64,000 nt of DNA from positions 7,150,668 to 7,214,667 of the forward strand of contig SMSO01000032.1 in the NCBI GenBank assembly GCA_004764695.1, read 5' to 3'. The notes under the pieces were generated by a model. That model worked only from the letters and a program-made list of their open reading frames with translations, searched no databases and was not told where the DNA came from. Source of the DNA: Schizochytrium sp. TIO01 (lineage: Eukaryota > Sar > Bigyra > Thraustochytrida > Thraustochytriidae). The translations under genes and the position numbers were made by a program. Shown piece after piece: positions 4,708 to 64,000 of the stretch (within the stretch, counting starts at the first letter, position 1; each line of letters starts with the position of its first letter).

Positions 4708-5463
4708 TTCAGCAGTAGTAGGTGGTTGCTGAAATTTCCAACCAAAGGAACTAATGGATAACGCATTGTCAGCGTTCCAGACGTTCCATTGTAAGACCTC
4801 AAGGATTTAGAGCTTACATAGAAACATAAGTAGATAACCAGACTTGCGTGATTAAGAAATCAAGAACCAAAAGTGTACATATATATTTCCTAGAATCAAG
4901 TATGGGGGAATCTGAATCGATGATGATTGAAGAAACAACTAACCTAACCTTAAATCGTCAATTATGTTTAGCACAGATCAAGTGTGTCTTAGTTTCGTAG
5001 TAATGTCATGGTTCAGTCTGTCTTAGAATCCGATTTCAATAACAGAAGATCACTAACTCTTAAAGCCAACCTTCACCGCGATTCTTGCCTTCAGCTTTAT
5101 AGTCAACCTCTAGCTGACTATCGTCATATTTAGCCGCAGTAGAAAGTCGAAAAGATCTTAGAAGATTTTGCCTTCCATCTATCTGCCTAGTATATCCTTA
5201 GCAAGTTAAGCTTCAACAGCCACTAGAACCCGAAGAACTCGCTATAAGTTACGATCTACCATTATCAACTAGTTTCAAAGGTTGTAAGCTTAACACTTGA
5301 TGAATTAGAATAAATAACGCAACACTAATTTTGTAAGAAAAGGGAAAGAAGCAATTTGTACCTAAGTGCCACAGGGGCTGCTTTTAAGAAGAAGCACTGC
5401 TCTTCTAACATAATGTTCGCCAGAATCAGTTTACAATTATCCATGACAAGGTTCTTCCGTGGT
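4708..5463. other. Spacer between convergent paralogues
   Basis: This is the shared 3' flank of two convergent membrane-protein genes. It is AT-rich with short stop-interrupted frames. Nothing else is recognised. Confidence 0.6.
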
Positions 5464-7374
5464 TTAATGCAGTGGCTCTCCATTGATAAAAGTAGGCATA
5501 TCCTTGTAATTATATTCCATCAAATATGGGTTGAGCGTAGCTCCATTCTCAATGCGAGAAGCAAGCCTTCCCTCGTCCACAAGAACGCCTAGGTATGCTC
5601 TGTAATGCACCAATGTCTCTACAACCTTTCGCTTGCCAATCAATAATCCCAAGATCGAAACGAAGAAGAAGCTGTTGATTCGAATGAGAAGTGGCCCATA
5701 CATGACAAGATCATCCTCAATGAATGTACTGGCATGCGTAAACTTTCCAAGAACCGTATAAATCGGACTGGCCCAAGCGCGACTAAATACACTATTGCCA
5801 AGTTTCCCTAGAAGAATACATTTGTCATATTCACTGAGGCCCTGGATAGTAGTCTTCCCGGAGGATTTGCGACTTGATTTATTCATTATGCCACTGAAAC
5901 GGTTTCGTCCAGAGCCTGAACGAATGGATGACAAACTGCCAACTCTTGCTGGGTTACGATATTTTAACTTCATCAGGGCACGGAATGCTGCAACGAGTAG
6001 TTCGAACGCAACCAAAAGCATCATTGTTATGAAAAATGGCTCGAAAAAGACCACATAAAAGATTTCAAGACCAGACATACCTACGCCATCCGCGATATTA
6101 CATGTGACAGTTCCAATAAGATCTCGCTCGATGTCATAGATAGCGCAATCGCGCTCAACAACCTGTCCCAAAGATCTTAGTGCAGATTGAGCAGATGTTT
6201 GAACAATATTGAACGAAATAAAACGCGCAGCTGTAGAAAGTACAAGCAAGATCGTACCGGTTGCATTAAATCGAAATTCGGACTGCCGAAACATTAAAGT
6301 AAGTATCAGGCTCGAGAAGGATGCAATCATCGCTGTAGACCAAAAGTCAGATATTGATGTATGTGGGTACAAGCCGACATCTAGAAATAAAAAACTCTGT
6401 GCACCTGTAAATACCGTAAATAGAAACATAATGAAGTTCCGCCCCGGAGATGTGAATAAACCACCGACAAGATCTGCTTTTACAAGCACACGTGTTTTTC
6501 TAATCTTGACCCCGCTCCAAAGAGTAGGGCAGGCCATAAGACGGCCACACGAGTTGATAAGAATGTCAATTAGCAGATAGTATGAGATAACATCTTGCCA
6601 AGGTATGTAATACTTTGTTTGGGCGTTTGATTTTGCTGATGAGTGTAGCTCTAAGTCAAGTTCGTACGTACTGTTTCTAACGAAGCGAGCATCTACAATA
6701 TGTTCCTCAGTGTATGTTACGCCAAAACCAATACTGTTCTTGGTTCGATAAAATTCAGTGATGGAAACTACTTCCTCTGCCTGAAAAGAAACAAACTGAA
6801 GTCCAAATATGTCGTTGGAAGTAACGCAAACTTCTTTACAACTGTGAAGCTTTTCGTTTGAATAGACTTGGCACATATATACCAACAAACCTTCTTTTCC
6901 AGATTCTCCTTCACAAGCATGACTAGCGAGAAACAAAACATGACTTTTAGAGCGAATGCCAACGAAATGGCTCATACCTGTATCTATCTCCGCAATTGCT
7001 ATCTCGGAAGTGTTAAACCAGAGAAACTCGCCGTAGTCATTCACCGATCTGAAAGTCTGTATCATTATCTCCTGATCATAAATGTGGATCGAACCTTCCT
7101 GATTAAAATCCAAGACCTTGGATTTGTAAACGACTTCTGGATGACCCCCTGTTCGAAAAGTAAATGCTCGCACCAAAAAGTACAAAGATGCAAACAAGGA
7201 CACAATGTTCCCAATGCATAGTATCTTAGAAAAATACTTGGTCTTCAGGGCAGCGAGCTTCTTCGCTGAGCCTTTGTTTCCCATAGCATCTCGCCCTGAT
7301 GTTCCAGACTGAACTGAAGAGGTGACATACGAAGTGGGACGTGTTGAGGGTAGTGTAGAGGTAGGTGTTGTCAT
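5464..7374 (-). CDS. Multi-pass membrane protein, paralogue 2
   Basis: The 636-residue product is collinear with the genes at 2788 and 11142. It has the same Ser/Thr-rich N-terminus with GNKGSAKK, one N-terminal membrane segment, and a cysteine-containing ectodomain with RTKNSIGFGVTYTEEHI. These are followed by SNAQTKYYIPWQD, several central membrane spans, and a C-terminal block with SDYDKCILL, FSRAWASPI, LGKFTHAS and EDDLVMYGP. I start it at the ATG at 7374. The reading frame is open 13 codons further, but that extension begins with TTG, and the ATG gives an N-terminus matching paralogue 1 in length and composition. It is oriented opposite to both relatives, so the cluster is not a simple head-to-tail array. 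Function is unknown; a lineage-specific membrane protein is the safest description. Confidence 0.9.
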   Translation of the reverse strand: MTTPTSTLPSTRPTSYVTSSVQSGTSGRDAMGNKGSAKKLAALKTKYFSKILCIGNIVSLFASLYFLVRAFTFRTGGHPEVVYKSKVLDFNQEGSIHIYDQEIMIQTFRSVNDYGEFLWFNTSEIAIAEIDTGMSHFVGIRSKSHVLFLASHACEGESGKEGLLVYMCQVYSNEKLHSCKEVCVTSNDIFGLQFVSFQAEEVVSITEFYRTKNSIGFGVTYTEEHIVDARFVRNSTYELDLELHSSAKSNAQTKYYIPWQDVISYYLLIDILINSCGRLMACPTLWSGVKIRKTRVLVKADLVGGLFTSPGRNFIMFLFTVFTGAQSFLFLDVGLYPHTSISDFWSTAMIASFSSLILTLMFRQSEFRFNATGTILLVLSTAARFISFNIVQTSAQSALRSLGQVVERDCAIYDIERDLIGTVTCNIADGVGMSGLEIFYVVFFEPFFITMMLLVAFELLVAAFRALMKLKYRNPARVGSLSSIRSGSGRNRFSGIMNKSSRKSSGKTTIQGLSEYDKCILLGKLGNSVFSRAWASPIYTVLGKFTHASTFIEDDLVMYGPLLIRINSFFFVSILGLLIGKRKVVETLVHYRAYLGVLVDEGRLASRIENGATLNPYLMEYNYKDMPTFINGEPLH

Positions 7375-10300
7375 TGTGTTTGTGTGTTGCGTAGATTTCT
7401 GAAAACTTGCCAAGGCACAGGCTAATTTATAACGAGCTCAAGAACAAAATAAATTGACCCTGATCGCTATAAGAAAAAGACACTGCCCTTCAAGATTGGC
7501 AGATCTGATTAATATTGATAGAATTGATGCCAGTGCTTGAGTGCGCCTTGTTTGGTTTGTTTCTACCTGAGCTAATCAAGTCCAGATGTAGATGTTTGAA
7601 AGATGATTGATTGTATGCTACAGTTTGGCGTCTTCCACAAAGACTGTGTTTACAATTGGCGATTTCCTTTGTTGCTCCCCTGTTATTTGCACCTGTGTAG
7701 CACGATGGGTCTGATTCGAAGGCACGAATTCACTTGGATCCCTCCAAAAATGAAATTGAGCACTGCGAAGAATGTCTCCCCTTATTCTAAAAAACATACT
7801 TAAATTATAAATCGTTAAGGTGTACTAGCATTTACATTATTTTTTATCCTCTTTGTTGTGAAAAATTAAAAGATTAGAAAAGAGTTTAGCACTAAACAAC
7901 TTAATATAAAGAACCTATTAAAGTTCCGTTGAGACATCTAGCGTTTGACTTAATTTGAGACATTATGTTACGAAACGTGCTGCAAAGCAATAACATATCG
8001 TTCTTCATATCGTGTGAAAGTATAAAAATGAGATCATCAATAAGCGCAGAAGAAAACAGAGAACGAGCGAGAAGAACGATGACATCCATGTATGAATTTT
8101 TTAATACATAATGAATAATGTCAATATGCTTGGCGTGTAGGACTATTAAAACAACCTCATTATTTTTAAAATGGCCCATCCCAGGCAAGTATTACGTGGG
8201 TGTTATGTAACGCATACATGTACTCTTTTTCAAGATTTTATCGCAAGCTCTTTTTACTTGACACCGAATCAAACAGATTTGGACTGACCCACCATATAAT
8301 CTCTAAAATAATGCTTATGTAACCCCCAAGGCTGTTACAACTTTGATAAAAGTGATCAACTACAAAATATTAGGTGAAAGCATTAGTGCGTCATAATAGC
8401 CTTTCTGCGATTAAAACCTCTTGCTTCAATTTCTCTTTGCAGTCCTTGGCTCCAGTATACCCCTCGAAACCATCGCTGAGAAATCACGCGAAAAACGGCA
8501 GTATCTAACAACATACTCCATTGGCCTGTTTTTCTCGTTTATGCTCATGTAAAGTATAAAATCAGATCACTCTTGCTGTGGGCAATTCTTATTTTGTGCG
8601 ACAGAATCAATGAGTATGCGTGGTAGCATTCAGGCAACTTGCAATTTAACAAGAGTTGTGTTGCAGTGTAATTGCTTCGTCTAATATGTAGCCTACAAGG
8701 TTCCATTTTCGAGCTGGGTAGTGTGCAAGAAATCTAGATAATGCACCTGGAAGTTGGGTTTTTGACTTTCTGGAGCTGTTTGGGGCATACACACTAACAA
8801 GTAGATACGCGGGTAGCTGCAAGACTTACATGGCGTCCAAGCAAGCAAGCAAACAACTGCATAGCGAAATTAATTGTCTGATATAAGAGCTGGTGATGCA
8901 ATGCGAAGTTTACCTCTTACTAGTTTAGGCGAGGGCTGTTTTGAAGAAGAAAACTAATAGATAACATCACACACCCAAGAAAGAGTCAATCAAAACCTTA
9001 CGTATACGCGGCGAGAAATATTTTTCATAGGTTAGAAATCAGCTTGCTGAATATGGTACTCTCTCACTTTCATCAAAGCTCTGCATTCAAGCAATGCTAA
9101 TAGGTGTCTTTTCAGCAGAAAACATCCATAGCAGGCGCAGAACGCTTTCATATGGCCTTTGCTAAACTTTTGTTCATTGATATCACTGCCTGTTACTTAT
9201 AAAATTTTGTTCTAAAGCTTACCAAACTTTAATGGACATTGCTCACATATGAACTATACTCAGCCATGTCGTTCCAATTTGTAATTCATTTGCTCGGAGT
9301 CGGGAAGTGAGAAAATACAATGGACCTTTCAGATAGCTATATTATATGATGATTTTGTGTTGTGACGAAACAAGAGTATGCTAGAAACCATGAATAACAG
9401 TCGTAGGATTTAAATCAGTTTGGTGGTCACAGCATACATCTTTTTAGTAAATTGCTTTCAAACGATCAGCCTTCCGCGCGACCGAAATTGATTCTATCCT
9501 TGTTGCTGCTCGGTGAAAGTTTAAAACACATGAAGCTTATCATAGGAACCACTCCAAATAGCTGTAAAAATAACACCCTAATATAGTAGGACATTCAAGA
9601 TTGAATAAACCTTGACTTTTATCTCAAACCATCTCTCCAAAAGATTGGATAAGACTGTAAAAACGTCAAATGGAATATTTTGAGCCATCTTTGTGAAAAA
9701 CATGAAAGCACTAGTCAGGGCATTGCCGATTGCATTTTTTTTTCACGCCCCCAAAAAATTATACGATTCTCGTATTCGAAACGATCGATTGCTGCGTAAG
9801 GTACTAATCCCTGTACACACTTGACAATCTTGGGCATTACGAAAAAAACATACTAATATTAAAAATGAAAACCCATGAACGACTATTGCTTGTCAATATG
9901 TACAATGGTAACATAAAGATTTTTGTCTGAATGAAGTTCTTCACATTTGCAGAGATAGGAATGTGCTCATCGATTCCCTTTGCGAACTACAGTTCGTTAT
10001 CTCGTTCAAATTGCATCAACGCGCTTTCTCAGAAAAATAAATAAATAAATAAATAAATAAAAAGGACCCTATGAGTTGGATTGTTCTCCTCCTGCGCCAC
10101 AAAGTCGAAGCCGCATGAGGATAGTTGGTGGAGAGATTAAGAGAGGCATTCGTATCAGGGGGCGTCTAACGGTATCGTACTGTTGCCATGTGAAACTATC
10201 CGTTTTGACCTGGTGTACAACTTTAAAAAAGATGAAGTGTAGGAGTGAAATTATCATACCTATTTAATTAAAAAAAGTATACTTTCCTTTCATGAACTTA

Positions 10301-11141
10301 TTCAGACAAGCTCCACCCGTATAGCTATGCCACTAATGTTTTATAGCCAGAATCAAGTCTCCATCAATCAGTGATGGTCTCGTGTGGAGGTATACAGGGC
10401 ACATCACAGTTTTTCACATTTAAAAATGAATAAAAATGAACAGTAATGTATATTACTCGAGTTCCCAGTAGAAATAAGGTTGTTCGATGAGTAGCCTATT
10501 GAGAATGTTTCTAACTGGTTCCTTGCATACATATACCACTTTTACAGCGTCCTAATAAGAACAAACATAACCAAGCATTTGGCAATATGAAACATCGCTA
10601 TTCACCCTTTGTGTCATGCTTTAGAATGCGTTGGTCCTTAGTGTGGCTATTCGGCATACGTTGGCATATTGATGAGTTACTACGTAACATACATTCCATC
10701 TACAAATGTGTTAAGTCGAAATCACATGCTTGATTAGAAAAGAGATTGGCTTGTTATGAGAAGGAGTTAGTAGGGTCAGATGAAATTTATCGGCCTACTA
10801 ATCCGTTGAACGTTTTCATACAGATAGAATATTTTTTCACTAGAAAAAGAAGAAAAAAAGAAGAGATGCTCTCACAGCTGCGATATGATGTAAAGGAGTC
10901 GCCTACAAGTTCTCCACGGTACGAAAAGTATTTTTTATTCAAGGTAAGAATTGACAATGGCGATTGTGCATGTCGTTTCCAGGGACGCCTAATAATATAT
11001 CATTAGGAGGAATAAAAGAAAAGAATCCGAACAGGTTCTTGTAGGCAAATCGGGATCAAGAGCATCGAGGCGAACTTTCGAGGCCATAGCCAAGTTGAAT
11101 GGCTCGAAAATTAGCCAACACAGACTATAGAGTATTGTGCA
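7375..11141. other. 3.8-kb gap between paralogues
   Basis: No supportable gene is seen in this long AT-rich stretch. The longest frames (for example 7901-8188 minus and 10746-11006 plus) are short and AT-driven, and the first lacks an ATG at its start. A (TAAA)n microsatellite sits near 10033-10062. No remnant of a fourth family member was spotted by eye, but a translated search would be needed to exclude one. Confidence 0.5.
10033..10062. repeat. (TAAA)n microsatellite
   Basis: About seven tandem copies of a 4-base AT unit lie in the gap between paralogues 2 and 3. Confidence 0.9.
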
Positions 11142-13172
11142 ATGAGTAGCGCTGATGCTCTGGAGCTTGATGTGAGCAGGACACGATCTCAAGACCTTCG
11201 AGTTATTCGAAAGCCTAGCAAGAAGAAATTGTCACAGAGACTACTACAGAACGGAGAAAATGGAAACTCGACAATTGTTTCGACTGCGCCGTCATCTGCT
11301 TTTTCCACTGTTCAGTCCTCCGCCGTGGATGAATCAACAAGTACTAGTGCAGATATTCTTGGCAACCGCGGCAAGGCCAAAAAAAGAGCAGCGCTTCTAA
11401 CTCGGGTTCGATCCTACATTTTTACTCTTGCCAACATCGTATTTATTTTGGTGCTGGTTCAGTACTTGCTGCGTGGCTTTGCTTTCCAAACTGGGCACTA
11501 TGATGAAGTTGCATATAAAATTAAAAACATGAAATTCAAGGGGAACCATACCTTACACCCCGAAGAAGACGTCGTCACACTTCAGCTTTTTCGTAATCCG
11601 GAAGACATTGGCACATATTTCTGGTTTTACTCATCAGAAATACGAATCGCCCAGGTTGACTCGGGTATGAGTCACTTCGTAGGTGTCCACACTGAAGATA
11701 TGTTACTGTTTCTTTCAAGTCATGGCTGCTTTGGAGTTGCAAAAAGTACTGAAGGTTTACTTGGACTTCACTGTGATGTAGACTATGTCCAAAATCCTAT
11801 TAATTGTACTCAAGTTTGTGTCGAGTCTAACTCAGACTATGGGATGATAGAATCGGAGCTTCAGTACGATATCAATTTTACTGTTCAGGAACTATACAAA
11901 ACACAGAATAGTCTAGGTTTTGGCGTTGTCTCTGTGGAAGAACATCTTGTTGGCGTATCAAAACTCGCCACTGACAATGAGACTTACCAGATGAAATTGG
12001 AATTGAGAGCCCATTCCCGCTCTAATGCGCAGGACACTTATGGAATTCCCTGGCAGGATATTCTTGTATACCTTTTTGCGTTTGATCTATGTATGAACGT
12101 TTTTGCAAGACTAATGACGACACCAGTGCTCTTAAATGGAGTTAAAATCCGTAAAACAAAAGTTTTGGTGAAGGCAGATCTAGCTGGTGGTTTATTTACA
12201 TCACCTGGGCGTTATTTTTCTATGTTTCTTCTTACGATTGTTTTTGGAGCACAGAATTACGTATTTTTAGATGCAGGGCATTACCCACATTCAATGGTAT
12301 CTCATGTATGGTCTATTGCAGGTATTACCTCAATGTCGGGAATGCTTCTCACGATCCTCATGACGGGCACTGAATACAGATTTTTCACCACAGGTACTAT
12401 GTTGTTCTTCCTTGCCGGATTTGCTCGGGCAATCTTGTTGCAGCTAGTGATGGACAATGCGCAAACTTCCGTACGCAAGATTGGTCAGGTGCTGGAAAGG
12501 GATTGTACCCTCTTTGATGAAGAGCATATGCACCTTAGTGAGATTCGTTGCAATGTTGCTGATAGTGTTGGAATGTCTGGATTGGAGGTGTCCTATAAGA
12601 TTTTCTTCGAACCAGTTGTAGTTACGATACTTTTGGTTTTCGCTCTTGAGATTATTGTAATTTTGTTCCACATTTCATGGTTTTGTATTAAAAAACGCGG
12701 GAAAGTTAACCCATCTACTATGTCACACTCCTCCGGTACCATGTCCATAAACAGTCGGCACAGATATCGCGTGAGCGCACAGTCGACTATTCAAGGTGTC
12801 AGCGATTATGACAAGTGCGTTCTTCTCAGTAATCTTGGACACAGCCATTTTAGTCGTCAATGGGCAAGCCCAATCAACACGGTCCTGGGAAAGTTCACGC
12901 ATGCCAGTACATCAATCGAAGATGACCTAGTAATGTACGGGCCAGTCCTAATTAAGATGAATTATTTCCCTTACGCAGCAATAGCAGGGCGGATTCTAGG
13001 AAAGCGAGAAACGGTCGAGTGGATTATTCGGAATAAATTTTATGTTGGTGTATTAGCTTCAAATGGAAAGTTAGCGTCGAAACGTGAAAATGGCATCAAA
13101 GTAAGCAACTACATTTCTGAATATAAATTTGACGAAATGCCTTATCTGCTGAGCGGGGAGCCACTGCAGTAA
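11142..13172 (+). CDS. Multi-pass membrane protein, paralogue 3
   Basis: At 676 residues this is the longest of the three paralogues, the extra length lying mostly in its N-terminal tail before the GNRGKAKKRAAL motif. The shared layout follows: an N-terminal membrane span, an ectodomain with paired cysteines and N-glycosylation-type sites, RSNAQDTYGIPWQDIL, about five central spans, and the C-terminal block (SDYDKCVLL, FSRQWASPI, LGKFTHAS, EDDLVMYGP). The segment VRIRKTKVLVKADL-like motif (KIRKTKVLVKADLAGGLFTS) after the second span is also shared and may form a loop with a functional role. Divergence is highest in the N-terminal tail and the ectodomain and lowest in the C-terminal block. This pattern fits variable external parts with a conserved intracellular function. 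Function is unknown. ATG at 11142 is the first in frame. Confidence 0.9.
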   Translation: MSSADALELDVSRTRSQDLRVIRKPSKKKLSQRLLQNGENGNSTIVSTAPSSAFSTVQSSAVDESTSTSADILGNRGKAKKRAALLTRVRSYIFTLANIVFILVLVQYLLRGFAFQTGHYDEVAYKIKNMKFKGNHTLHPEEDVVTLQLFRNPEDIGTYFWFYSSEIRIAQVDSGMSHFVGVHTEDMLLFLSSHGCFGVAKSTEGLLGLHCDVDYVQNPINCTQVCVESNSDYGMIESELQYDINFTVQELYKTQNSLGFGVVSVEEHLVGVSKLATDNETYQMKLELRAHSRSNAQDTYGIPWQDILVYLFAFDLCMNVFARLMTTPVLLNGVKIRKTKVLVKADLAGGLFTSPGRYFSMFLLTIVFGAQNYVFLDAGHYPHSMVSHVWSIAGITSMSGMLLTILMTGTEYRFFTTGTMLFFLAGFARAILLQLVMDNAQTSVRKIGQVLERDCTLFDEEHMHLSEIRCNVADSVGMSGLEVSYKIFFEPVVVTILLVFALEIIVILFHISWFCIKKRGKVNPSTMSHSSGTMSINSRHRYRVSAQSTIQGVSDYDKCVLLSNLGHSHFSRQWASPINTVLGKFTHASTSIEDDLVMYGPVLIKMNYFPYAAIAGRILGKRETVEWIIRNKFYVGVLASNGKLASKRENGIKVSNYISEYKFDEMPYLLSGEPLQ

Positions 13173-34555: not shown

Positions 34556-34559
34556 ATAA
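34556..34559 (+). repeat. Target-site duplication ATAA, left copy
   Basis: ATAA directly precedes the left terminal repeat CCCTGGCTA. The same four bases follow the right terminal repeat at 39049-39052. This is the duplication expected from transposon insertion. It differs from the TTAA usual for piggyBac. Confidence 0.75.
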
Positions 34560-34568
34560 CCCTGGCTA
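34560..34568 (+). repeat. Left terminal inverted repeat
   Basis: CCCTGGCTA is the perfect inverse of the right end at 39040-39048. Similarity stops after nine bases. Confidence 0.8.
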
Positions 34569-34800
34569 AATTCAAAATGTCCCGAATTATGTCCGCAAAA
34601 TATTTTTGACTAAAATCGCCAGAAAACCCTGTAAAGATCTAAAATCGTAAATTTGATTGTATGATCATGTTGAAACAACTGTTTCCCTAAACTGAGCACG
34701 ATTTCTTTGCAGAAGCAAGCGTATTGAGCTCACGCTACTCGTCCAAAAATTGGCTCACAACCTCGATAAAACGGCCTAATAGGGCAAATAGGCCTTTAGA

Positions 34801-34827
34801 TTTTCAGGACGTAATACGTCCTGAAAA
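34801..34827. repeat. Left subterminal palindrome
   Basis: A 27-bp palindrome, TTTTCAGGACGTA around a central A, matches the right-end palindrome 39010-39040 at most positions. It lies about 240 bp inside the left end and is a likely transposase-binding or recombination-enhancing site. Confidence 0.75.
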
Positions 34828-35020
34828 ACTGAACTTTGCATTAGCGAAAACGTATAAGAGTTTGGGTATTTTGGTTAGTTTAATAGTTTAGTTAATATAA
34901 ACAATAGTAGTTTATTTTTGCGTTGCTCAAGTCGGAGAAACATCTAAAGATGAAGATTTCGCGATAAATGAAGATTTTATATAAGCTAAATGTAATATTA
35001 ATTTTTTGTGTGGATAATTT

Positions 35021-38000
35021 TTATGTATGGAAATGAGGAATCGTAATTTGCTCCTCGCTATGAAATTTGATATTGCAATGCTTACAAATGTAAGCATTGC
35101 AAGTTTGGCACCATCGAGTGGTCTTCCGTGGATTACGATATGGATGGTCTGGCGCCGATCCCCGTTCGCAATCAACACAACACATAATGCAGGCTCCCCT
35201 CTTCTTGAACTTGCCCACGCATTCATGCTGTCCAACTAAACGAGTTTGTAGAAGTTCTGGGAGTCGTGACTTACTGTATTGATACTGTTGCGGCGATTCT
35301 AGCGAGGCTGTAGAAGTAGGCGAAATGGTGTTATCAGTTGCTCTCCAGCAGAATTCTATGTCAGACATGGAACAAGTATTGTCAAATGGGTAAAGGGATT
35401 CCATTGAGACAACCCTAATTTCTTCTGCGAGACTACTTAGATAGCCTCTATAGCAGCACAGATTTTTGCGTAGCATTGACCATTCCGTAATTGTTTTACA
35501 CTTCGATGTGAGGTTCCGATGCTCCATTGAGAGGAGCTGATACGCTCGAAACGAGTTGTATAAAATATAGTCAATGAATGTTAAACAAACCAAAGCATTA
35601 GGAGTCAGCTTTGAAGTACGAATGCTCGCTCCATTGATAGTTTTTCTAGTGATATCAACTCCGCCCATCATCTTATTCCAGACACTAACAGTCAAAGGCA
35701 GTAGGCGTTTGCAAGGCGGTGGGGTTCCGTTGACCAGCACGTCGTCACTATGCCTCCGCCAAAGCTGCAAAGCGAGTTCGGCACTGTGTAAATCCACAGC
35801 ATAACCCCAGTCTGGTGATTGGTCTGGTGCAAAACGAGGAAACCTACCAAGTTGATTGCCATAAGCAAAGCCCATGTATTCATCACTCAACGCTTTGAAA
35901 TACTCACGCCATGACTGGCGCTGGGCACATGAGACTTTGATTAGCACTCCTTGCATGATTTCCTCAGTTGTGGCATATATAAGGAGGGTGTAAGGGACAT
36001 CTAAAGTAGCTGCATGATGGATACACTGAGTTCGAAACGACGGATTTGGGACTAACGACTCGAACTCACTTGTTCCACATTTGCATTCGTGCCACGCACT
36101 CTGACCAGCAACTCGAGACTTTAACTCATCTATAGTTTTGGCATTTGTACTTGTTTTGATTTCTAAGGCAAATACATCATCTATAACAAAATTGTTTCCT
36201 TCTAGCTCTGTATTCCTCAAAAGAACAGCTGCACCGTCGGGTGAGTCTGCTACAAATTGGACTTCCCGATTAATAATCAGACCATATTTGCGTAGCTGGA
36301 GAATACAGAATTTATTGGAACTTGCTTTCTTAACCCATCTGGAAAGATCTTTCGCCACGTCTGCCTCATTTTCAATCCCCAAAGCCAGTGGGTTTTTATG
36401 ATTCGAAAACCCATTTTGAATAGGCTTCATAAACCAACTTGGTGTGATTGTTCTAAGAAATGATTTCTGGCGTTCCTCGAAAGTGCATGTATGGTTATCA
36501 TCAATCGTTTCAGAATTGTGCAAGGGAAAGCTGTCCCCAATGTCACTACTGTCACTCATTTCCAGCAGGTCTTGAGTAGTGGACTCCTGAGATGCATGCT
36601 GAGGGTGTATGTCTTCCTGTAAGGAAGATAGTTCTCCGTTTGAGACCGTTTCATGATCTATAGTTCTTGATAGGATGTCTACGATCCGCTTGGCTAGTTC
36701 GATCTTTTTGCCATCAGTCTTTGCACCTACATCCAAAGAAAGTAACTTTTGGATAAGCTCATTTTTGTTCATACGTTGCATCCAGTATGTATATTCAAGA
36801 ATAAGACCCTCCCCTTGACGCTTCCTTTTATATTGCTTCTGAGCTCCTTCAGATGAATAAGAAGAACGCTTATTAGGACGGGGGAATAATGAGATAATTC
36901 GTTGCGGGTCAAGACAAGCGAACGATTTCACATCGTGGTGTAAGGCCATAAGCTCATCCGAATGAACGAATGGAGCATTTTTAAAGTTGATACAGGTAAA
37001 AGCACCGGTGCTTGTAATTCTAAATTGCCGAGCCATAAACCAGTCAGGTGTTCTTTGGGAAATTGTCATTGAGAAGATATTGGCGTTCACAAGGTTAATT
37101 TTATGATTAGCTTGTGCCTTCATCTTATATGTACTCATGTCACACGGCTCTATCTCAATCTCAGCATGTGGAACGCGCTTTACACCACCTGGTGAGTTCC
37201 AATCTACTCCAGCAGGAAGTACTTCGTAACTCCAAACTTGGTCAGCCAAACAACGGTCGTTCGTGATGAGTTGTGCAACTCTATGCTTTCCCGCACCGTG
37301 ACGCATCATCATCGCAGCAACAAAATCGCCATTCTGGTATCTTTGAGCGGTGTAGGTGCTTCGACGGCCATTCCTGTTAATGATAGTTTGACTTCCCCTC
37401 ACAGGCGTAGCAGGAACTGGTCCTTCAACATCTATAAACGGGAATGACGAGGTCTTGCGACAAGTTCCAAGAAATTTGACTCCCTTTGACTGAAGAATTT
37501 GAGTTATGTTTGTTGCACGATCCATATCCTGAGGTTTCGATAATGCCAGATAACCACGATCAATGAATACACGAAGCTCTGAAGACACAGACGCATCAGG
37601 GCTTTCTCCTGACTCCCCCTCATTCAGAAAATCTATTGCCTTGCTTACAATTTTATGAACAGGTGAGTGGGAAGTCTCTAACCGTGGTACTAGGAGCAGA
37701 CCTGTACCCACAGAGCACACAAGATGTATCACGGGTTTCTGTTTTTTTGTTTTCGTTGGAATGGTACGAATTCCAAAATTCTCCCACTGAGGAGAACCAT
37801 AGGGAAGCTTGTCGTCATCAAGATCGATCCAAGTGGTTTTAGGGACAAAGAACATCTTCACCCAATGGCGCTGAGCAGCACCTCCCATTTCATGGATGAT
37901 CGGACTTGAGGAGCATACTCTAGCCTCGCGTGACCCTTTTGTTGCCCGATTGGACTTGTCCAGGCTCATTGCCTTTCGAACTTTTGAATAGGATACCGTA

Positions 38001-38536
38001 TGGGCTAGATTCCAATGACCTGGTGGGTCCTCAAGACACTCCGAGAACGACTTTCCTGCAACTCGCAGAGAAATTTCAACGAGAAGGTAGGCACGGAAAT
38101 CTTGATCCGTGATAGAAAATGGCGGAGATGCGTTTGAGCTAAGACTATTCAACCATTCCTTAACTGCAATCACCCAGCCTGGCGGCAAACAAATCTTGAA
38201 ACTATCAAGCCTGGTAAATTTGTAGTTATTGTCAACACGAAGAACCTTTCGAATCCTTTTAGTAATCTCCGAACTTTCTTGTTGAACCTTGGGGAGCATT
38301 AATTCGCTTGAGCAATTGTACTTGAGTTGGACTGCGTTCATGCCAAGTTGAGACCCAGATAGGTTGCTGTGGTACTTTGCGCCTTCAGTGGAGTAAGATT
38401 GAAAGGTCCAGTTTTCATGGCCAGGAGTACTTGCCGATGAACACTCATAGAGATCGTTCTCGTCTTCATCAGAAGAAGACTCATCAGAGGAAATGTAGAT
38501 TGAGTCCTTGTCATTCTCGACGTCATCTAGAGACAT
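35021..38536 (-). CDS. piggyBac-like transposase with embedded YqaJ-type nuclease and SAP-like motif
   Basis: The 1171-residue transposase should cut and join the element's ends. The N-terminus is acidic (1-50). The DDE core shows D238/D240 in WIDLDDDKLP, D326 in FIDRGYL, and D961 in NKMMGGVDI followed by the NSFRAYQL helix as in piggyBac. The C-terminus has a cysteine-rich domain (CxxCCxxC at 1116-1123, CxxC at 1143-1146, CxxC at 1151-1154, H1159) like the piggyBac end-binding finger. Canonical spacing between the last two aspartates is about 100 residues; here it is 635. The extra part contains TPDWFMARQFRITSTGAF (496-513), a SAP-like helix pair (about 589-622), GIENEADVAKDL (720-731), SPDG (765-768), EIK (792-794) and RTQCIHHAATL (835-845). 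This matches YqaJ/lambda-exonuclease PD-(D/E)XK motifs. ATG at 38536 is first in frame; no intron is needed. Confidence 0.88.
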   Translation of the reverse strand: MSLDDVENDKDSIYISSDESSSDEDENDLYECSSASTPGHENWTFQSYSTEGAKYHSNLSGSQLGMNAVQLKYNCSSELMLPKVQQESSEITKRIRKVLRVDNNYKFTRLDSFKICLPPGWVIAVKEWLNSLSSNASPPFSITDQDFRAYLLVEISLRVAGKSFSECLEDPPGHWNLAHTVSYSKVRKAMSLDKSNRATKGSREARVCSSSPIIHEMGGAAQRHWVKMFFVPKTTWIDLDDDKLPYGSPQWENFGIRTIPTKTKKQKPVIHLVCSVGTGLLLVPRLETSHSPVHKIVSKAIDFLNEGESGESPDASVSSELRVFIDRGYLALSKPQDMDRATNITQILQSKGVKFLGTCRKTSSFPFIDVEGPVPATPVRGSQTIINRNGRRSTYTAQRYQNGDFVAAMMMRHGAGKHRVAQLITNDRCLADQVWSYEVLPAGVDWNSPGGVKRVPHAEIEIEPCDMSTYKMKAQANHKINLVNANIFSMTISQRTPDWFMARQFRITSTGAFTCINFKNAPFVHSDELMALHHDVKSFACLDPQRIISLFPRPNKRSSYSSEGAQKQYKRKRQGEGLILEYTYWMQRMNKNELIQKLLSLDVGAKTDGKKIELAKRIVDILSRTIDHETVSNGELSSLQEDIHPQHASQESTTQDLLEMSDSSDIGDSFPLHNSETIDDNHTCTFEERQKSFLRTITPSWFMKPIQNGFSNHKNPLALGIENEADVAKDLSRWVKKASSNKFCILQLRKYGLIINREVQFVADSPDGAAVLLRNTELEGNNFVIDDVFALEIKTSTNAKTIDELKSRVAGQSAWHECKCGTSEFESLVPNPSFRTQCIHHAATLDVPYTLLIYATTEEIMQGVLIKVSCAQRQSWREYFKALSDEYMGFAYGNQLGRFPRFAPDQSPDWGYAVDLHSAELALQLWRRHSDDVLVNGTPPPCKRLLPLTVSVWNKMMGGVDITRKTINGASIRTSKLTPNALVCLTFIDYILYNSFRAYQLLSMEHRNLTSKCKTITEWSMLRKNLCCYRGYLSSLAEEIRVVSMESLYPFDNTCSMSDIEFCWRATDNTISPTSTASLESPQQYQYSKSRLPELLQTRLVGQHECVGKFKKRGACIMCCVDCERGSAPDHPYRNPRKTTRWCQTCNAYICKHCNIKFHSEEQITIPHFHT

Positions 38537-38951
38537 GACACACAGCTGACGTTAAACTCAAGCGCCAATGGACCTCTTCGCTGAGGGAAGTGCTGATAGA
38601 TCCCAAGTAGACTAGCAAGTGGACGATGAAGTAAGGTATGATGTACTTTTGTTGGTACTGCTGGCACTACATGCTGGCGCAAGATATTATTGATGTTTAT
38701 CAGTATTAATTGTCTGGTAGAACAGGTACCGTGGGAGAACCTAACGACCATGTGTCAAATACCTGTTAACCTAACCACCACCTAACCGCCACTGAGAATG
38801 TCATTGTTTGGTCCTAAACTCAACTATCAATCGGAGAATCATGAGAACATGATAACATATGGACAGGTGAGGTCGGGGAGGGTAAACTAAACGAGTTTCA
38901 TCCCGAACAGAGCTAGACTGTTGAATTGATCAATGACTCAAGTAGGTACAT

Positions 38952-38980
38952 ATTTTTCGGGACGTAATAAGTCCTTAAAT
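38952..38980. repeat. Degenerate subterminal palindrome copy
   Basis: ATTTTTCGGGACGTAATAAG matches one arm of the right-end palindrome, and the second arm is decayed. It lies about 60 bp from the intact copy, in the same orientation. Confidence 0.7.
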
Positions 38981-39009
38981 ACTCTACCGGGAAAATTAAA
39001 GTTTATCCG

Positions 39010-39040
39010 ATTTTTCGGGACGTAATACGTCCCGAAAAAT
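39010..39040. repeat. Right subterminal palindrome
   Basis: A 31-bp palindrome, perfect except for the central base, has arms ATTTTTCGGGACGTA and TACGTCCCGAAAAAT. Its last base is the first base of the right terminal repeat. Confidence 0.85.
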
Positions 39041-39048
39041 AGCCAGGG
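39040..39048 (-). repeat. Right terminal inverted repeat
   Basis: TAGCCAGGG is the perfect inverse of the left end at 34560-34568. It is followed at once by ATAA. Confidence 0.8.
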
Positions 39049-39052
39049 ATAA
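39049..39052 (+). repeat. Target-site duplication ATAA, right copy
   Basis: This matches the four bases before the left end. Confidence 0.75.
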
Positions 39053-52515: not shown

Positions 52516-54422
52516 GGTGACGTGGGAGACAGGAAAGCGTTCCTTTATTCTGTGCAGCTAGACAAAGCGTTGCCGCTTTGTGTTTTTTCGCTGGGGAATA
52601 TCGAATTTTCAATGGCGAAGCGCAAACCAAGATGCAAAGTAGCTTATATATGTACTGGAATGTATGAGTTACTTAGAAAATCCTCTCTTGGACGGCTCGC
52701 AAGCGAGGTATATCTAATCTTGAAGGTATAGCACCCAACAAAACCGCTTGTTTCTATCAGAGGAGAACCACGAGGAGGCCAGCCGCCGCGTCGCACCTTT
52801 TTGACGCGGCCCTAGACTCCACTCCGAAAAGCCTTGGCAGGCTCGCCAGCCATACCAGCGCCGTTAGCACGCTCAGCGGTCTATCGTATCCGGTGTTGCA
52901 CGGAGTCTCGTTCTTGTGTTGGTTTGTCACCCCTTTTTTGTTCTCAAATTCTTGCGTTACTGCTTCCTTAAACAAAAAAAAAAACACAATCGTGCAGTCT
53001 ATTATTGTTATACTTCTAATTTTATTATTCTAGTTTTAAAACTTGCCACCTGGGTACCTATTTTTCCTCCTCTTACCGTGCAGGAGCCAAAACAAGGTGG
53101 CTTGACCAACGTCGTCAAATCAACTCCAAATTCCATTAACCGATGTCTGCGTTTATGGTTGCTGCTGATTGCTAGTCCACAATATATGTGACTCGCGAGT
53201 TCCCGCCCAGCTTCAATATGCTACCACTGACAAAAGTAACACACGGAGCTCATTTTCTAAGCCTTCTCAGTCCAAAGACGTGTGTACCTGTTCCTTCTCC
53301 AAATGTAAAAGTTACTACCTACCTGCTTGAATTTCGTTATGCTTCGTGACACCCTTTAGGCCTCTCCTGCTACCAATCTTGAGCTGCATGGAAGAGCGAA
53401 ATCAATGCAATATTACTGCCTGTGCTAATCTGGACTCGCTTATGATCCTTAGCCGCGAGGCTTCGTTATAAATTCAGCTTTATGTTTGCACTTACGCTAT
53501 CGGTCGGTTCCTCATCCACAAGGAGACCGCCACCGCAGAGGAGACAGAGCAAAAGGCTTATTACCGGATCTTCTAAAATAGACCACTTTCCTGGACCAGT
53601 GGAATTTGTGGAACTGAGCTCGAGAAACTCAGCACTTTTTCCACTACTTCGCAAGAATACTGCCTATTCCTTTGAAGTTTGACGCATTGCTTGCATAGGA
53701 ATTGGTTATAATTGTCGATCTTCAACATAAAATTGCGGTAGCTAGCTTGATGTCTGGCCATCTTGGTCGAGTGGCGGTGACCAGCAATTTTTTAATTAAG
53801 ACCGTCACAGGCATAGTAATCGTCTTTAAAAGGAAGTCCTGTTAGCACTGCCTATCAAATTCTAGTGCCGACGATGTGGTCCTCTTCATCTTGCAAGTTG
53901 AAGCACCCTCCGGTTCTTCGCACAACAAAGCTATAAAAGTAGGTTTCTTTGGGTTTTGCTTGAAGCAAGGGAAATGAGCTCCTGCAAAAGAGATTGAGCA
54001 GATATCGTCACAATAGTAACTAACACTGTCACTGGCGCTGGCGTTGACAATGATATTGACAAATGACAATGACAATATGATCGATCCAGTGATGAGGATT
54101 TTGCATAGGATTTCGCATACCGAATATTGGAGTTGGTAGTAGAAGAAGAAGAACTCTCTTTACCAGAGCACATGAGATGAATTCATGAACTTGAAATAAT
54201 CGAATTCAACGAGCTTTACGCGTGCCACTTCACGATATCGATCGATCGTAAGAATATATATGCTAGGTAACCTACGAACAAAAGCACTTCAGGAATTGAT
54301 GATGGAAAATGTTATATAACTTGAAAAGGAAAAGAAAGTTGTGCTTATACCAAATGGATTAAGAGTCCTACTAATTGAAAAAGAAAAGAAGAAATGAAAG
54401 GAAGAAGAAAATGAGTGATTGA
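52516..54422. other. Divergent upstream region
   Basis: 1.9 kb lies between the IQ/WW gene (minus) and the tRNA dimethylallyltransferase gene (plus). It should hold both promoters. GTACCTA words occur near 53051 and 53320, a TGACAATGA-rich imperfect repeat lies near 54046-54078, and there is an ATCGATCGATCG palindrome near 54238-54249. No gene is supported. Confidence 0.5.
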
Positions 54423-56273
54423 ATGAATGAAAGCGCTTTGGGCTCCGACGGAGCTTGCTCTGCAAACTGCAACGCCGGGCGTGAGATGAGGGCCACTGCG
54501 TCGGTCTTCGTGCGCAGCCTGCTCCGAGGTGCCAACCCGGCCCCGGCACAGCCACTTCTTCGTTCAAGTGTTGTCTCGCGCTCCGTAATCTTGTCTTCTG
54601 CACCACCACCACCACCACCAGCATCCTCCGGATCATCCTCTAGAGCGTCTTCATCTTCTACTAAAACGTCCCCAACGTGGGCGTATCCTCCAACTTCAAC
54701 TTCTTCAACTGCAATGCAGGCTGATTCCAGCGAAGGCAACTCGTCTTCCCCACAGCGAGGAGATGCAGGTGTCCAGGATGCAGGGGCAGCGCAAAAGCTA
54801 GGGCAAGACAAGGTTGATGCTCGTGGAGCACCAGAAAACTCTGGTGAATCTGATGAGGCAATTATGGCACGTGGTATTTCTGATAAAGATCTCAACGAGA
54901 ACTTAGATGAGGGCAACCCTGACAAGAAAGTTTTGGTGATTGTTGGCGCAACAGGCGTAGGAAAGTCAAAGTTGGGCGTAGAGCTTGCACTGAAGCTGGG
55001 CGGCGAGGTGGTGAACACCGACGCGGTGCAGATGTACAGGGGCTTGGACATTTCGTCCGCAAAACTGACAAAAGAGGAAATGGAGGGCGTTCCACACCAT
55101 GTGATCAATATCCTTGACCACAACCAGTATTGGACTGTCAAAGACTACCGCAATTATACTCTGCCGATTATTGAGGATATTATTGCACGTGGAAAACTCC
55201 CAATTCTTGTGGGAGGCACACTGTATTACCTGCAAAGCCTCTTGTGGCCGGCCTTGCTTGACGCAAGTAACAATGCTGATGACAACGGAGAGGAAGGGGA
55301 CGAGGAAGTTAAGATCCCTGATGGACTAACCCCACACCAATATCTGCAGCAGCTGGACCCGGAACGCGCAGACCACTTGCACCCACGCGACGAGCGGAAA
55401 GTATTGAGGAGCATTCACATCACCGTTACTTCTGGTCGGCCACACTCAGAAATCTTGAAAGAACTTAAAGAAAGCGGTATTCAAGACCAACTCCGATTCC
55501 GCACTTCGATTTTGTGGCTTCAATGCAAGAGGCACGTCCACAAGGACCGCATTGACAGGCGCGTTGAAGATATGCTCCAGCGTGGAGTTGTTGAGGAGGC
55601 CGTTCAATATATTGAAGAGCATAACTTGACAGACAAACTAATGGCGAATGACCCGTCACTCCAACATGGACAGTTTCAGGCGATCGGGTTCAAAGAGTTC
55701 CTCCCGTTTTTGCGTGCGTCGAAGAATCCAACAATGGATCCCATCAAGTTGAAGGAAATCAAACAGGAATGTATGAGTCTTCTTCAACTCCATCACATGC
55801 AATACAGCAAATACCAAACGAAATGGATCAACAAACGTCTTTTGCCACGAAATGCCCCGGTTTTTGGTCTTCCTACAGATCGCTACGAACAGGATCCAAG
55901 TAGCTGGAAAACGGATGTATTAGATCCTTCATTGAAAATCTGCGAATGGCTCATGTCCTCGAAGTCACTAGCCAATACAGAACCTGAAGGTATCTCAAAG
56001 TTGAACAAGACTATTGACTCTCAACAACTTACAACCCACTACTGCAAGGCATGTCATGTTACAATCGTTGGAGATACGCCCTGGAAGAGCCACCTTGGGA
56101 GCCATCGCCATCGGAGGCGAACACGAGACCAAAATAAGCGAAAGAGTACCTGCAGTGAATTCGCGGAACTCGTCCAAGCGGAACTCCAGCGGGAACAGAA
56201 CGGTGGGGAAGCACCCAAATCTCCTTCTTCTCCAAGTCGCAAGAAGACCCCTCAGACGAAGGATCAGGACTAA
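54423..56273 (+). CDS. TRIT1: tRNA dimethylallyltransferase (TRIT1/MOD5 type)
   Basis: The 616-residue enzyme adds isopentenyl to A37 of tRNAs reading UNN codons (i6A37). Residues 1-165 are a Ser/Pro/Ala-rich extension. The catalytic core has the P-loop GATGVGKS (175-182), VNTDAVQMYRGLDI with the substrate-binding Asp (197-210), HHVINILD (225-232), and VGGTLYYLQSLLW (263-275). Downstream come RFRTSILWLQC, the DRR..ML..G motif and QAIGFKEF. The C-terminal C2H2 zinc finger (HYCKACHVTIVGDTPWKSHLGSHRH) is the matrin-like finger of eukaryotic enzymes. Three in-frame ATGs are plausible starts: 54423, 54486 (MRATASVFVRSLLRG, mitochondrial-like), and 54714, after the presequence. That pattern would allow mitochondrial and cytosolic forms, as in yeast MOD5. 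The first ATG is annotated. Confidence 0.93.
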   Translation: MNESALGSDGACSANCNAGREMRATASVFVRSLLRGANPAPAQPLLRSSVVSRSVILSSAPPPPPPASSGSSSRASSSSTKTSPTWAYPPTSTSSTAMQADSSEGNSSSPQRGDAGVQDAGAAQKLGQDKVDARGAPENSGESDEAIMARGISDKDLNENLDEGNPDKKVLVIVGATGVGKSKLGVELALKLGGEVVNTDAVQMYRGLDISSAKLTKEEMEGVPHHVINILDHNQYWTVKDYRNYTLPIIEDIIARGKLPILVGGTLYYLQSLLWPALLDASNNADDNGEEGDEEVKIPDGLTPHQYLQQLDPERADHLHPRDERKVLRSIHITVTSGRPHSEILKELKESGIQDQLRFRTSILWLQCKRHVHKDRIDRRVEDMLQRGVVEEAVQYIEEHNLTDKLMANDPSLQHGQFQAIGFKEFLPFLRASKNPTMDPIKLKEIKQECMSLLQLHHMQYSKYQTKWINKRLLPRNAPVFGLPTDRYEQDPSSWKTDVLDPSLKICEWLMSSKSLANTEPEGISKLNKTIDSQQLTTHYCKACHVTIVGDTPWKSHLGSHRHRRRTRDQNKRKSTCSEFAELVQAELQREQNGGEAPKSPSSPSRKKTPQTKDQD

Positions 56274-61866: not shown

Positions 61867-62687
61867 CTATGAGTACGTGTAATCATAGGTAAAAGTTGTT
61901 GATATTTGTTTGTTGACATTACAGAGAAGGAAGAAGGAAATAAAGAGAAAGAATCGATCAATACTTTTCATCATAGTTCGGATCCTCGTTAAATCAAGCG
62001 CAGCAAACCCTCAACGGCCTGCGGAGACTTCGGTAAGTACGCCTGGCTCTTCGAACGAGCTCCTTTGGGCTCTGGCTCGCGGCTGGCGTCGCCAGGGGCG
62101 CTACATGGTGGTGCCTGTCTTGTGCTGCGTGCCGAGGCGTGACCCAACCGTCTCATTCGTTTGCGGGGTCTTGAGGACGAATGGACGAATGAATATCCAT
62201 GCAGCCATTCAAGCTCACGGCGAAATATGACGACCGAAGGAGGCAACTTCTTCGGTGAGGCTCCGAGGGGAGGCTCATGCGACGGGGGGGTTGGATCAGG
62301 GTGTGAGAAATCCTGATGGGTACTTGACTAGATCTGAAGAACACGCGAAATACGAGGTCTGCGAGAACTGGACCCCGTGTGAGTTGGTTCGTGATTGTTT
62401 TATGCCCTGGATTCTTTAGTTAATAGGAAAGATACTCAAGGATACAAAGATCAACCTTGAAATGCCAAGTTACGAGTGCAGGGGAATATTGTGACGGGGG
62501 TGGATGTAGATGCTGCGCTTGAGTATGGTGAACTAACAAAACTAGTAAGCTTGAATTTGTATCGTTCAATGACGAACTATGGGGATTGCTCATCGACCAA
62601 TCCATGCACGGAATTTAAACAACATAGAAGGTTCAAAACTTTTGAGAGTAGCTAGTCTAAGCTAACTTCATTTGATCACTGAATACC

Positions 62688-63881
62688 ATGTTCAAGAAGG
62701 GTGCACAGCGTACCTTTGCCTCGGCGGCCTCGGCCCCGGCGGCGAAGAAGGTCGTCTTTGTTGATGGTGCTCGTATTCCGTTTGCAATGGCTGGCACCAC
62801 ATACAAAGATAAGATCTCCTACGACCTTGCTCGCATCGCAGCTAAGGGTATTGTAGATCGCACTGCCATCGACAAGAATGAAATCGACTATGTTGCCTGG
62901 GGTACTGTCGTTCAGGAAGTGCGCACCAACAACTTGGCTCGTGAGGTCACCCTTGGTGCTGGCCTTCCCCTTGGCATCCCGTCCCACACCATCGGCCAGG
63001 CCTGTATTTCTTCTAACCAGGCTATCTGTACTGGTGCTGAGAAGATTCTTTCTGGCCAAGCCGAGGTCGTTCTTGCTGGTGGCTCTGAGACCTTCTCTGA
63101 TGTCCCCATTCGCTTCTCTAAGCCAGTGCGTGAGCGTCTTCTGGTTGCAAACAAGGCTATGAAGAAGGGTCCCATGGGAATCGTCAAGCTTCTCCGTGGC
63201 CTCAAGCTCAAGGACCTTGCCCCTGAACCTCCCTCGATTATGAACTTTAGCACTGGCGAGGTTATGGGCCACAGCAGTGATCGCCTTGCCTCCCGTTTCG
63301 GTGTAAGCCGCCAGGACCAGGACGAGTTTGCTGTGCTCTCGCACGTTAACGCTGCCAAGGCTCACTCTGAGGGATTCTACAAGGATGAGATCCTGAACGT
63401 TAACGGATCGACCGAGGAGAACTGCATTCGTGGTGATACTACCTTGGAGAAGCTCCAGAAGCTCAAACCTGCGTTTGTCAAGCCTCACGGCTCCCACACC
63501 GCAGGAAATTCATCCCCTCTTACTGATGGTGCTTCTGCATGCCTTATCATGAGTGATGACAAGGCCAAGAGCCTTGGCTACACCCCTCGTTCTCACATCA
63601 AGGGATGGAACTTTGTTGCCGTTGACCCTTTCGAAGAGATGCTTCTTGGGCCTGCTTACGCCATTGCTCGCTTGCTTAAGGCGCACAACCTTACCCTTGC
63701 AGATATCGACGTCTTTGAGATCCACGAGGCCTTCGCTGGCCAGGTGCTGAGCAACCTCACTGCCCTTGAGTCTGATAAGTGGTGCAAGGAGAACCTTGGC
63801 TCTGACAAGATCGGAGCAATTCCCTTTGACAAACTCAATCAGTGGGGTGGATCCCTTTCCATTGGTCACCCCTTCGGTGCT
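62688..63881 (+). CDS. HADHB: Mitochondrial 3-ketoacyl-CoA thiolase (trifunctional enzyme beta subunit), exon 1, 3'-partial
   Basis: The enzyme cleaves 3-ketoacyl-CoA with CoA in the last step of long-chain beta-oxidation. This exon encodes 398 residues. A short basic presequence (MFKKGAQRTFASAAS) is followed by VFVDGARIPFAMAGTTYKD, matching HADHB rather than the generic degradative thiolases. The nucleophile is C106 in QACISSNQA. PIRFSKPVR, FSTGEVMGHSSDRLA, and ANSSPLTDGA-like NSSPLTDGASA follow. H346 lies in EIHEAFAGQ and H394 in SIGHPFGA. The coding sequence stops being thiolase-like exactly at a GTAAGT donor after GGTGCT. The next motif, TG.R, and the second catalytic cysteine must lie on an exon beyond the window. 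The 398-codon length puts the intron in phase 0. Confidence 0.94.
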
Positions 63882-64000
63882 GTAAGTTTACTCGTTTCTA
63901 CCTTATCTTGGTTGGCCCTAGTGTGATTTCACCCTTTGGGCTCCTGCAGACTTCACTCTTCTGATGACTAACCAGTGACCTTTAAACACAACCTCACGCC
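63882..64000 (+). other. Intron of the thiolase gene, running past the window end
   Basis: It starts with the strong donor GTAAGT. A read-through would add 14 unrelated residues and a stop. The candidate acceptor at CTCCTGCAG (about 63942-63950) would give TSLF and a stop rather than the expected TG-containing thiolase sequence, so the true acceptor is probably beyond 64000. Confidence 0.8.

Follow-up and report, generated by a model that had tools for sequence, protein, structure and literature searches.

A piggyBac-type transposase of Schizochytrium sp. TIO01 with a predicted YqaJ/lambda-exonuclease-like nuclease nested in its RNase H fold

Results

A transposase frame interrupted by a second nuclease

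The DNA analysed here, called the window, is a stretch of 64,000 nucleotides from the thraustochytrid Schizochytrium sp. TIO01 (GenBank assembly GCA_004764695.1, contig SMSO01000032.1, positions 7,150,668 to 7,214,667). It contains a transposon whose protein is very probably a piggyBac-type transposase in which the RNase H fold, between catalytic aspartates two and three, houses a complete YqaJ/lambda-exonuclease-like PD-(D/E)XK nuclease, probably together with a SAP-like segment. The open reading frame (ORF) of this transposase-nuclease encodes 1171 amino acids and runs unbroken through window positions 35021-38536, as a first-pass annotation of the same DNA had proposed; the minus strand is added here, the annotation being silent on it. 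The ORF is the single long frame of the whole element and contains both the transposase and the nuclease domains. A frame open by chance can be dismissed, because seven identical copies of 4489 bp exist and both the layout and the catalytic residues recur in a second element family that is 40% identical.

The piggyBac landmarks listed in the first-pass annotation were recovered at the residues given there: D238/D240 in TTWIDLDDDKL, D326 in FIDRGY, D961 in NKMMGGVD and the Cys-rich finger at the C-terminus. The nuclease motifs RITST (506-510), SPDG (765-768), EIK (792-794) and RTQ (835-837) were likewise found in place. Approximately 500 extra residues separate the RNase H strands from the D961 helix. 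The insert begins after the segment that matches the last strands of the piggyBac insertion domain and ends before the helix with N954 and D961. The annotation had suggested that a second nuclease replaced or enlarged the insertion domain; an insert is indeed present, but the predicted nuclease was added after the insertion domain and did not replace it. The parts of the protein, all on the minus strand, are as follows.

35021-38536: transposase-nuclease ORF, 1171 amino acids
37847-38299: residues 80-230, helical half for dimerisation and DNA binding; the full-length model is at its best here, and its piggyBac match begins at residue 85
37247-37846: residues 231-430, RNase H half (D238/D240, D326), its last part being the strands of the piggyBac-type insertion domain
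36902-37087: residues 484-545, YqaJ N-terminal motif (QRTPDWFMARQFRITST), aligned by a YqaJ profile built in this analysis
36641-36814: residues 575-632, tentative SAP-like helix pair; Pfam SAP is the top match (E 0.02, under the cut-off)
35822-36481: residues 686-905, PD-(D/E)XK (YqaJ/lambda-exonuclease) core with E724, SPDG 765-768, EIK 792-794 and Q837; identified by its confident model, by lambda exonuclease and LHK-Exo as top matches and by profile matches
35402-35704: residues 945-1045, returning RNase H helix (N954, D961) and C-terminal helical half
35024-35206: residues 1111-1171, C-terminal Cys-rich, probable zinc finger; Cys/His conserved in five members, the relative L027 matching zf-Tnp_2 just under the cut-off

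The insert is predicted to fold as a lambda-exonuclease-like nuclease

The nuclease core (residues 686-905) was modelled template-free from eight family members only, with no YqaJ sequence as input. The model reached a mean predicted local distance difference test (pLDDT) score of 81.5 and a predicted template-modelling score of 0.79. When it was searched with Foldseek, the first six matches in the PDB were lambda exonuclease and LHK-Exo (best E 6.6e-5, probability 1.00). VIA ranked LHK-Exo (Z 9.2), the mimivirus Cas4-like protein R354 (Z 8.7) and lambda exonuclease (Z 8.3) at the top. Z scores of 8-9 are modest, yet every leading row is a PD-(D/E)XK nuclease. Among predicted structures of viral proteins, the matches were alkaline exonucleases and YqaJ proteins. 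In the model, E724 lies in a helix, D767 ahead of a strand, E792 and K794 in the strand after it and Q837 in the subsequent helix, which is the order of a PD-(D/E)XK fold.

Sequence profiles point to the same families. Searches of Pfam, PHROGs and PDB with single sequences returned nothing useful. With the SAP/linker part excised from the query, 24,736 Pfam and 18,950 NCBIfam models were searched. YqaJ was the sole Pfam match of the element of the second family (E 0.015, 16 bits, cut-off 22), and the lambda-exonuclease family TIGR03033 came top in NCBIfam for the window segment (E 0.0096, 16 bits, cut-off 68). Nine of the ten columns that are invariant among 11 aligned YqaJ proteins occur in order (W, S, G, E, P-D, E-x-K, Q set). 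Alignment of the element nuclease with the YqaJ alignment by hhalign reached a probability of no more than 7.4% (P 0.005), which is low; a version with three sequences gave 2.8% against a maximum of 1.3% in 40 column shuffles and is unconvincing alone. The first-pass annotation had assigned this region to the PD-(D/E)XK nucleases on the strength of its motifs. That assignment has held up in both approaches that the annotation had named as able to refute it: YqaJ and lambda-exonuclease families ranked first in the profile searches, if under the curated cut-offs, once the SAP/linker segment was cut out, and residues 686-905 are confidently predicted to fold as lambda exonuclease and LHK-Exo do, with D767 followed by the E792/K794 strand.

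The SAP-like helix pair, placed at residues 589-622 in the same annotation, fared less well and is the weakest part of the architecture. SAP is indeed the first-ranked Pfam family for this stretch, but the score of 15 bits is below the cut-off of 23.9 and only 18% of its residues are identical in the second family.

A free-standing YqaJ gene is also present in the genome (L032 1285-2508, G000 C36:4088765). It encodes 407 amino acids, is close to phage YqaJ exonucleases and matches LHK-Exo with an E value of 1.9e-14.

The transposase is of the piggyBac type

A full-length AlphaFold2 model was built with five family members. Its mean pLDDT is 37, the helical N- and C-terminal halves being modelled best, and of this low-confidence model the piggyBac match alone was used. 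VIA-align matched model residues 85-1047 to piggyBac (6x67) with a Z score of 14.6 (root-mean-square deviation 5.1, 311 residues) and the model to piggyBat (9c0f) with 13.6 (290 residues). The third-ranked row had a Z score of 6.1, and Tn5 scored 5.6. The helical domain and an RNase H fold split by an insertion are both present in this model, at its low confidence. The piggyBac match covers both flanks of the insert, something hardly to be expected of a wrong fold.

The DDD triad, D238 (or D240), D326 and D961, is retained in both active families. N954 and D961 are seven residues apart, as are N440 and D447 of piggyBac (numbering from PDB 6x67), where N440 contacts the hairpin (PMC7351741). 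The element ends are of the CCC..GGG type. The relative L027 matches zf-Tnp_2 just under the cut-off (E 1.9e-4, 22.3 bits, cut-off 24), and the Cys pattern is conserved in the window protein. Taken together, the modelled full-length fold, the ends, the target duplication and the probable zinc finger support a transposase of the piggyBac type.

Ordinary piggyBac-related frames were found in the genome as well. L033 (G000 C31:7606601), L034 (C13:2563422) and L035 (C13:6427843) are matched by Pfam DDE_Tnp_1_7 with E values from 5e-32 to 2e-9. By eye, their catalytic aspartates seem altered. The matches of L033 and L034 leave no space for a large insert.

Seven identical copies at variable TA-centred sites

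In the genome from which the window comes, 37 contigs with a total of 64 Mb, the search recovered the protein seven times at 100% identity and once as a decayed copy (97%), along with several related frames. Phycobilisome linkers were looked for as well and not found, so that the host is probably not a typical red alga. Alignment of the seven copies with their flanks defined an element of 4489 bp with 9-bp inverted repeats, CCCTGGCTA...TAGCCAGGG, at its ends. The seven copies do not differ at a single position, and the flanks are distinct for every copy. The features of the element are:

34560-39048, minus strand: whole transposon, 4489 bp, seven identical copies, from the seven-copy alignment including flanks
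34560-34568: terminal inverted repeat CCCTGGCTA, right end of the element
39040-39048: terminal inverted repeat TAGCCAGGG (plus-strand letters), left end of the element
34556-34559: target duplication ATAA (plus strand), TTAT in element orientation
39049-39052: target duplication ATAA (plus strand), TTAT in element orientation
39010-39040: 31-bp palindrome spanning bp 9-39 of the element (centre bp 24), where a dimer of the Cys-rich domain may bind

The 4-bp duplications of the seven copies are ATAT, TTAT, TTAA, CTAA, TTAT, ATAG and TTAG, and the two duplications agree at every site. The element has moved recently, because the copies are identical while the target duplications are distinct. 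All insertions examined (9/9, seven of the window family and two of the second family) have the form NTAN with a central TA. Just one of the seven copies lies at TTAA; the element, which does not keep strictly to TTAA, is therefore a divergent piggyBac-type element and not a classical TTAA piggyBac. Searches of the genome with the element ends yielded only the known copies, the decayed copy and two lone ends. These lone ends, at G000 C33:399352-399516 and C31:2011616-2011811, are 85-88% identical and are relics of older copies or non-autonomous derivatives.

A second family with the same layout, and relatives without the catalytic pair

The second family encodes a protein of the same layout with the same catalytic residues. 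Its intact copy (L030) has 4389 bp, the ends CCCTGGATA...TATCCAGGG and the duplication CTAA; a decayed copy (L031) has the duplication CTAG. Two decayed fragments of this family (G000 C10:83331-84255 and C24:5775107-5776029) are a near-identical pair, which suggests either a segmental duplication or a duplicate in the assembly. Between the two families, the nuclease core and the RNase H half are each 48% identical and the linkers 25-27%. This equal conservation of core and RNase H half, above that of the linkers, may be counted at the sequence level as a sign of selection on the nuclease.

The second element also has a palindrome (bp 11-35, centre bp 23). Arms as long as those of the window element did not occur in 5000 shuffles, and arms of at least nine (the second element has ten) occurred in 14 of 5000. 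In piggyBac, a dimer of the Cys-rich domain binds bp 17-33 (PMC7351741). By analogy, the two palindromes, with their centres at bp 24 and bp 23, may mark equivalent sites, which would support the piggyBac assignment.

Six relatives (L027, L028, L029, L056, L067 and L068) retain the fold region and the finger, and in none of them is the E-x-K pair intact. E792 and K794 are replaced or missing, with the exception of L068, where the E is aligned and the K absent. Most of the six also lack transposase aspartates; L027 retains D240, D326 and D961. Five are single frames of 1168-1305 amino acids, and L056 is split into two. Each relative occurs at one place:

L027: 2101-6018
L028: 890-4588
L029: 3309-7043
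L067: 970-4476
L068: 668-4366
L056: 735-3996

Element ends were looked for around L027, L028 and L029 and none were found. The chance of 1171 codons staying open in random sequence of 43-50% GC (guanine plus cytosine) is ∼4e-25 or less; frames of such length are improbable by chance, and those of the relatives therefore look selected. The six are possibly domesticated genes derived from the piggyBac-nuclease fusion, and may point to host takeover of the fusion, perhaps several times. Searches of viral contigs, prokaryote genomes and phages yielded no relatives; eukaryotes are not part of these collections, and the result therefore says nothing about absence elsewhere.

Other features of the window

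Three related membrane-protein frames (639, 649 and 676 amino acids, one of them inverted) form a local gene family at 2788-13172. They share motifs such as SNAQ..Y.IPWQD and LVKADL.GG.FTSPGR. Long open frames at 54371-56273 and 62676-63926 run antisense to the genes of a probable tRNA isopentenyltransferase and of a thiolase (named by eye), and are probably a by-product of codon usage.

Discussion

On balance, we favour the view that the element is an autonomous, recently active cut-and-paste transposon. The nested domain is predicted to be an active DNA nuclease used during transposition, which we likewise regard as probable. piggyBac excises by way of hairpins, leaves 4-nt 5' overhangs and inserts at TTAA (PMC7351741). 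The RNase H site of the present element would excise and insert it with 4-nt staggers in the same way, and the excised element would bear the 4-nt 5' overhang of the donor. In piggyBac, a TTAA overhang can pair with the TTAA gap at the target. NTAN targets vary by site, such that the old overhang would mismatch the new gap and would have to be removed. Six different tetramers occur among the seven copies, and at least five moves were therefore onto a tetramer unlike that of the donor. We infer that the donor overhang was removed, because it would be unpaired with the target gap, yet all sites show perfect target-derived duplications. A nested 5'-to-3' exonuclease would strip this overhang, and overhang removal is tentatively put forward as the most likely step for it. 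PiggyMac of Paramecium, whose cuts have the central TA alone in common, relies on end joining by the cell (PMC3408717), which shows that ends need processing once specificity is relaxed. Possible, if rather speculative, is the fuller scenario in which a piggyBac-type transposase internalised a 5'-to-3' exonuclease that removes the donor overhang after strand transfer, two nuclease sites act in sequence and the element was thereby freed from the TTAA restriction. A hairpin-resolving role, suggested in the first-pass annotation, is unlikely and was set aside, as the DDD site of piggyBac itself opens the hairpin.

Several observations weigh against these interpretations. Pfam DDE_Tnp_1_7 matched neither the whole nor the insert-free protein, an insert-free transposase profile scored piggyBac no better than shuffled sequence, the mean pLDDT of the full-length model is just 37, and the Pfam and NCBIfam nuclease matches stay under the curated cut-offs. 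Host nucleases are an obvious alternative for trimming overhangs, so that a built-in nuclease is not strictly needed. The nuclease domain may also serve a structural or DNA-binding role, because the six relatives keep its fold region minus the catalytic residues. Taken further, the inserted domain would be a structural or DNA-binding insertion domain with a nuclease fold whose catalysis is unused; in these relatives the zinc finger is kept along with the fold region, and the insertion domain of piggyBac itself contacts DNA and is non-catalytic (PMC7351741). We consider this unlikely. Both families with ends and target duplications retain every catalytic residue at 40% overall identity, and most relatives that lost the catalytic pair also lost transposase residues, with no ends detected around three of them.

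Alternatively, an active nuclease might work on the donor site, resecting the break 5' to 3' so that 3' tails steer repair to the sister chromatid, the element is copied back and its copy number rises. Relatives of lambda exonuclease degrade 5'-phosphorylated strands, and 5' overhangs are what a piggyBac-type break leaves at the donor. A YqaJ gene is also found in ISL2EU transposons (PMC4482050), a group unrelated to piggyBac, which would fit a general use of the nuclease at donor breaks. However, the donor ends retain complementary 4-nt overhangs that permit simple ligation, and the genome holds only seven full copies, hence no sign of strong amplification; donor-break resection seems rather unlikely. 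Still less credible is a transposase of another DDE superfamily into which piggyBac landmarks were read. The missing piggyBac profile match and the dispensable TTAA fit it, but the full-length model scores 14.6 and 13.6 with piggyBac and piggyBat against 5.6 with Tn5, and the 4-bp central-TA duplications, the CCC..GGG ends and the probable zf-Tnp_2 finger speak for piggyBac, as does the same relaxed central-TA cleavage by the ciliate PiggyMac (PMC3408717). Capture of a host nuclease gene as a passenger by one element copy is hardly conceivable: a separate YqaJ gene (L032) does exist in the genome, but the nested layout recurs in two element families and several relatives, and the nuclease core is among the best-conserved parts.

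piggyBac is a main genome-engineering tool and is restricted to TTAA sites. A natural relative with its own end-processing nuclease and NTAN insertion would be a new tool candidate. The nested form also makes the link between a transposon and DNA-end processing directly testable. The literature search found no description of YqaJ inside a piggyBac transposase, with most subscription papers and Repbase outside its scope, so that an unreported database entry is possible; going by titles and word counts, three papers name both piggyBac and YqaJ, once or twice each. Likewise, the search found nothing combining piggyBac with a SAP domain and an exonuclease.

Compared with piggyBac of Trichoplusia ni and piggyBat, the window element is alike in fold, domain order, the three aspartates on either side of the insertion, N954/D961 in place of N440/D447, a probable C-terminal zinc finger, the CCC..GGG ends, the 4-bp duplication and a palindrome near one end. 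It differs in ∼500 additional residues with a second nuclease, in NTAN instead of TTAA, and in a sequence beyond profile detection. With YqaJ, lambda exonuclease and LHK-Exo it shares the PD-(D/E)XK core, the N-terminal W and R-x-T-S, SPDG, E-x-K, the conserved Q and the best fold matches. Unlike these free phage enzymes, the window nuclease is nested in a transposase, is split by a SAP-like/linker segment of ∼140 residues and has a longer SPDG-EIK hairpin. PiggyMac (PMC3408717) is also a piggyBac-type enzyme that makes 4-nt staggered, TA-centred cuts and does not need TTAA, but it is a domesticated host protein with no nested nuclease described there, its overhang processing being attributed to host end joining. 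ISL2EU, of the PHIS superfamily, is likewise a DNA transposon carrying a YqaJ exonuclease, as a separate gene whose function is unknown according to the sources (PMC4482050, PMC9179366). Its YqaJ stands beside a Harbinger-type transposase, with an AT duplication and GG ends, whereas that of the window lies inside a piggyBac-type transposase with NTAN duplications. In ISL2EU, another group of transposons has recruited this nuclease family, there as a gene of its own, and the nested form would allow YqaJ function in transposons to be studied inside one protein.

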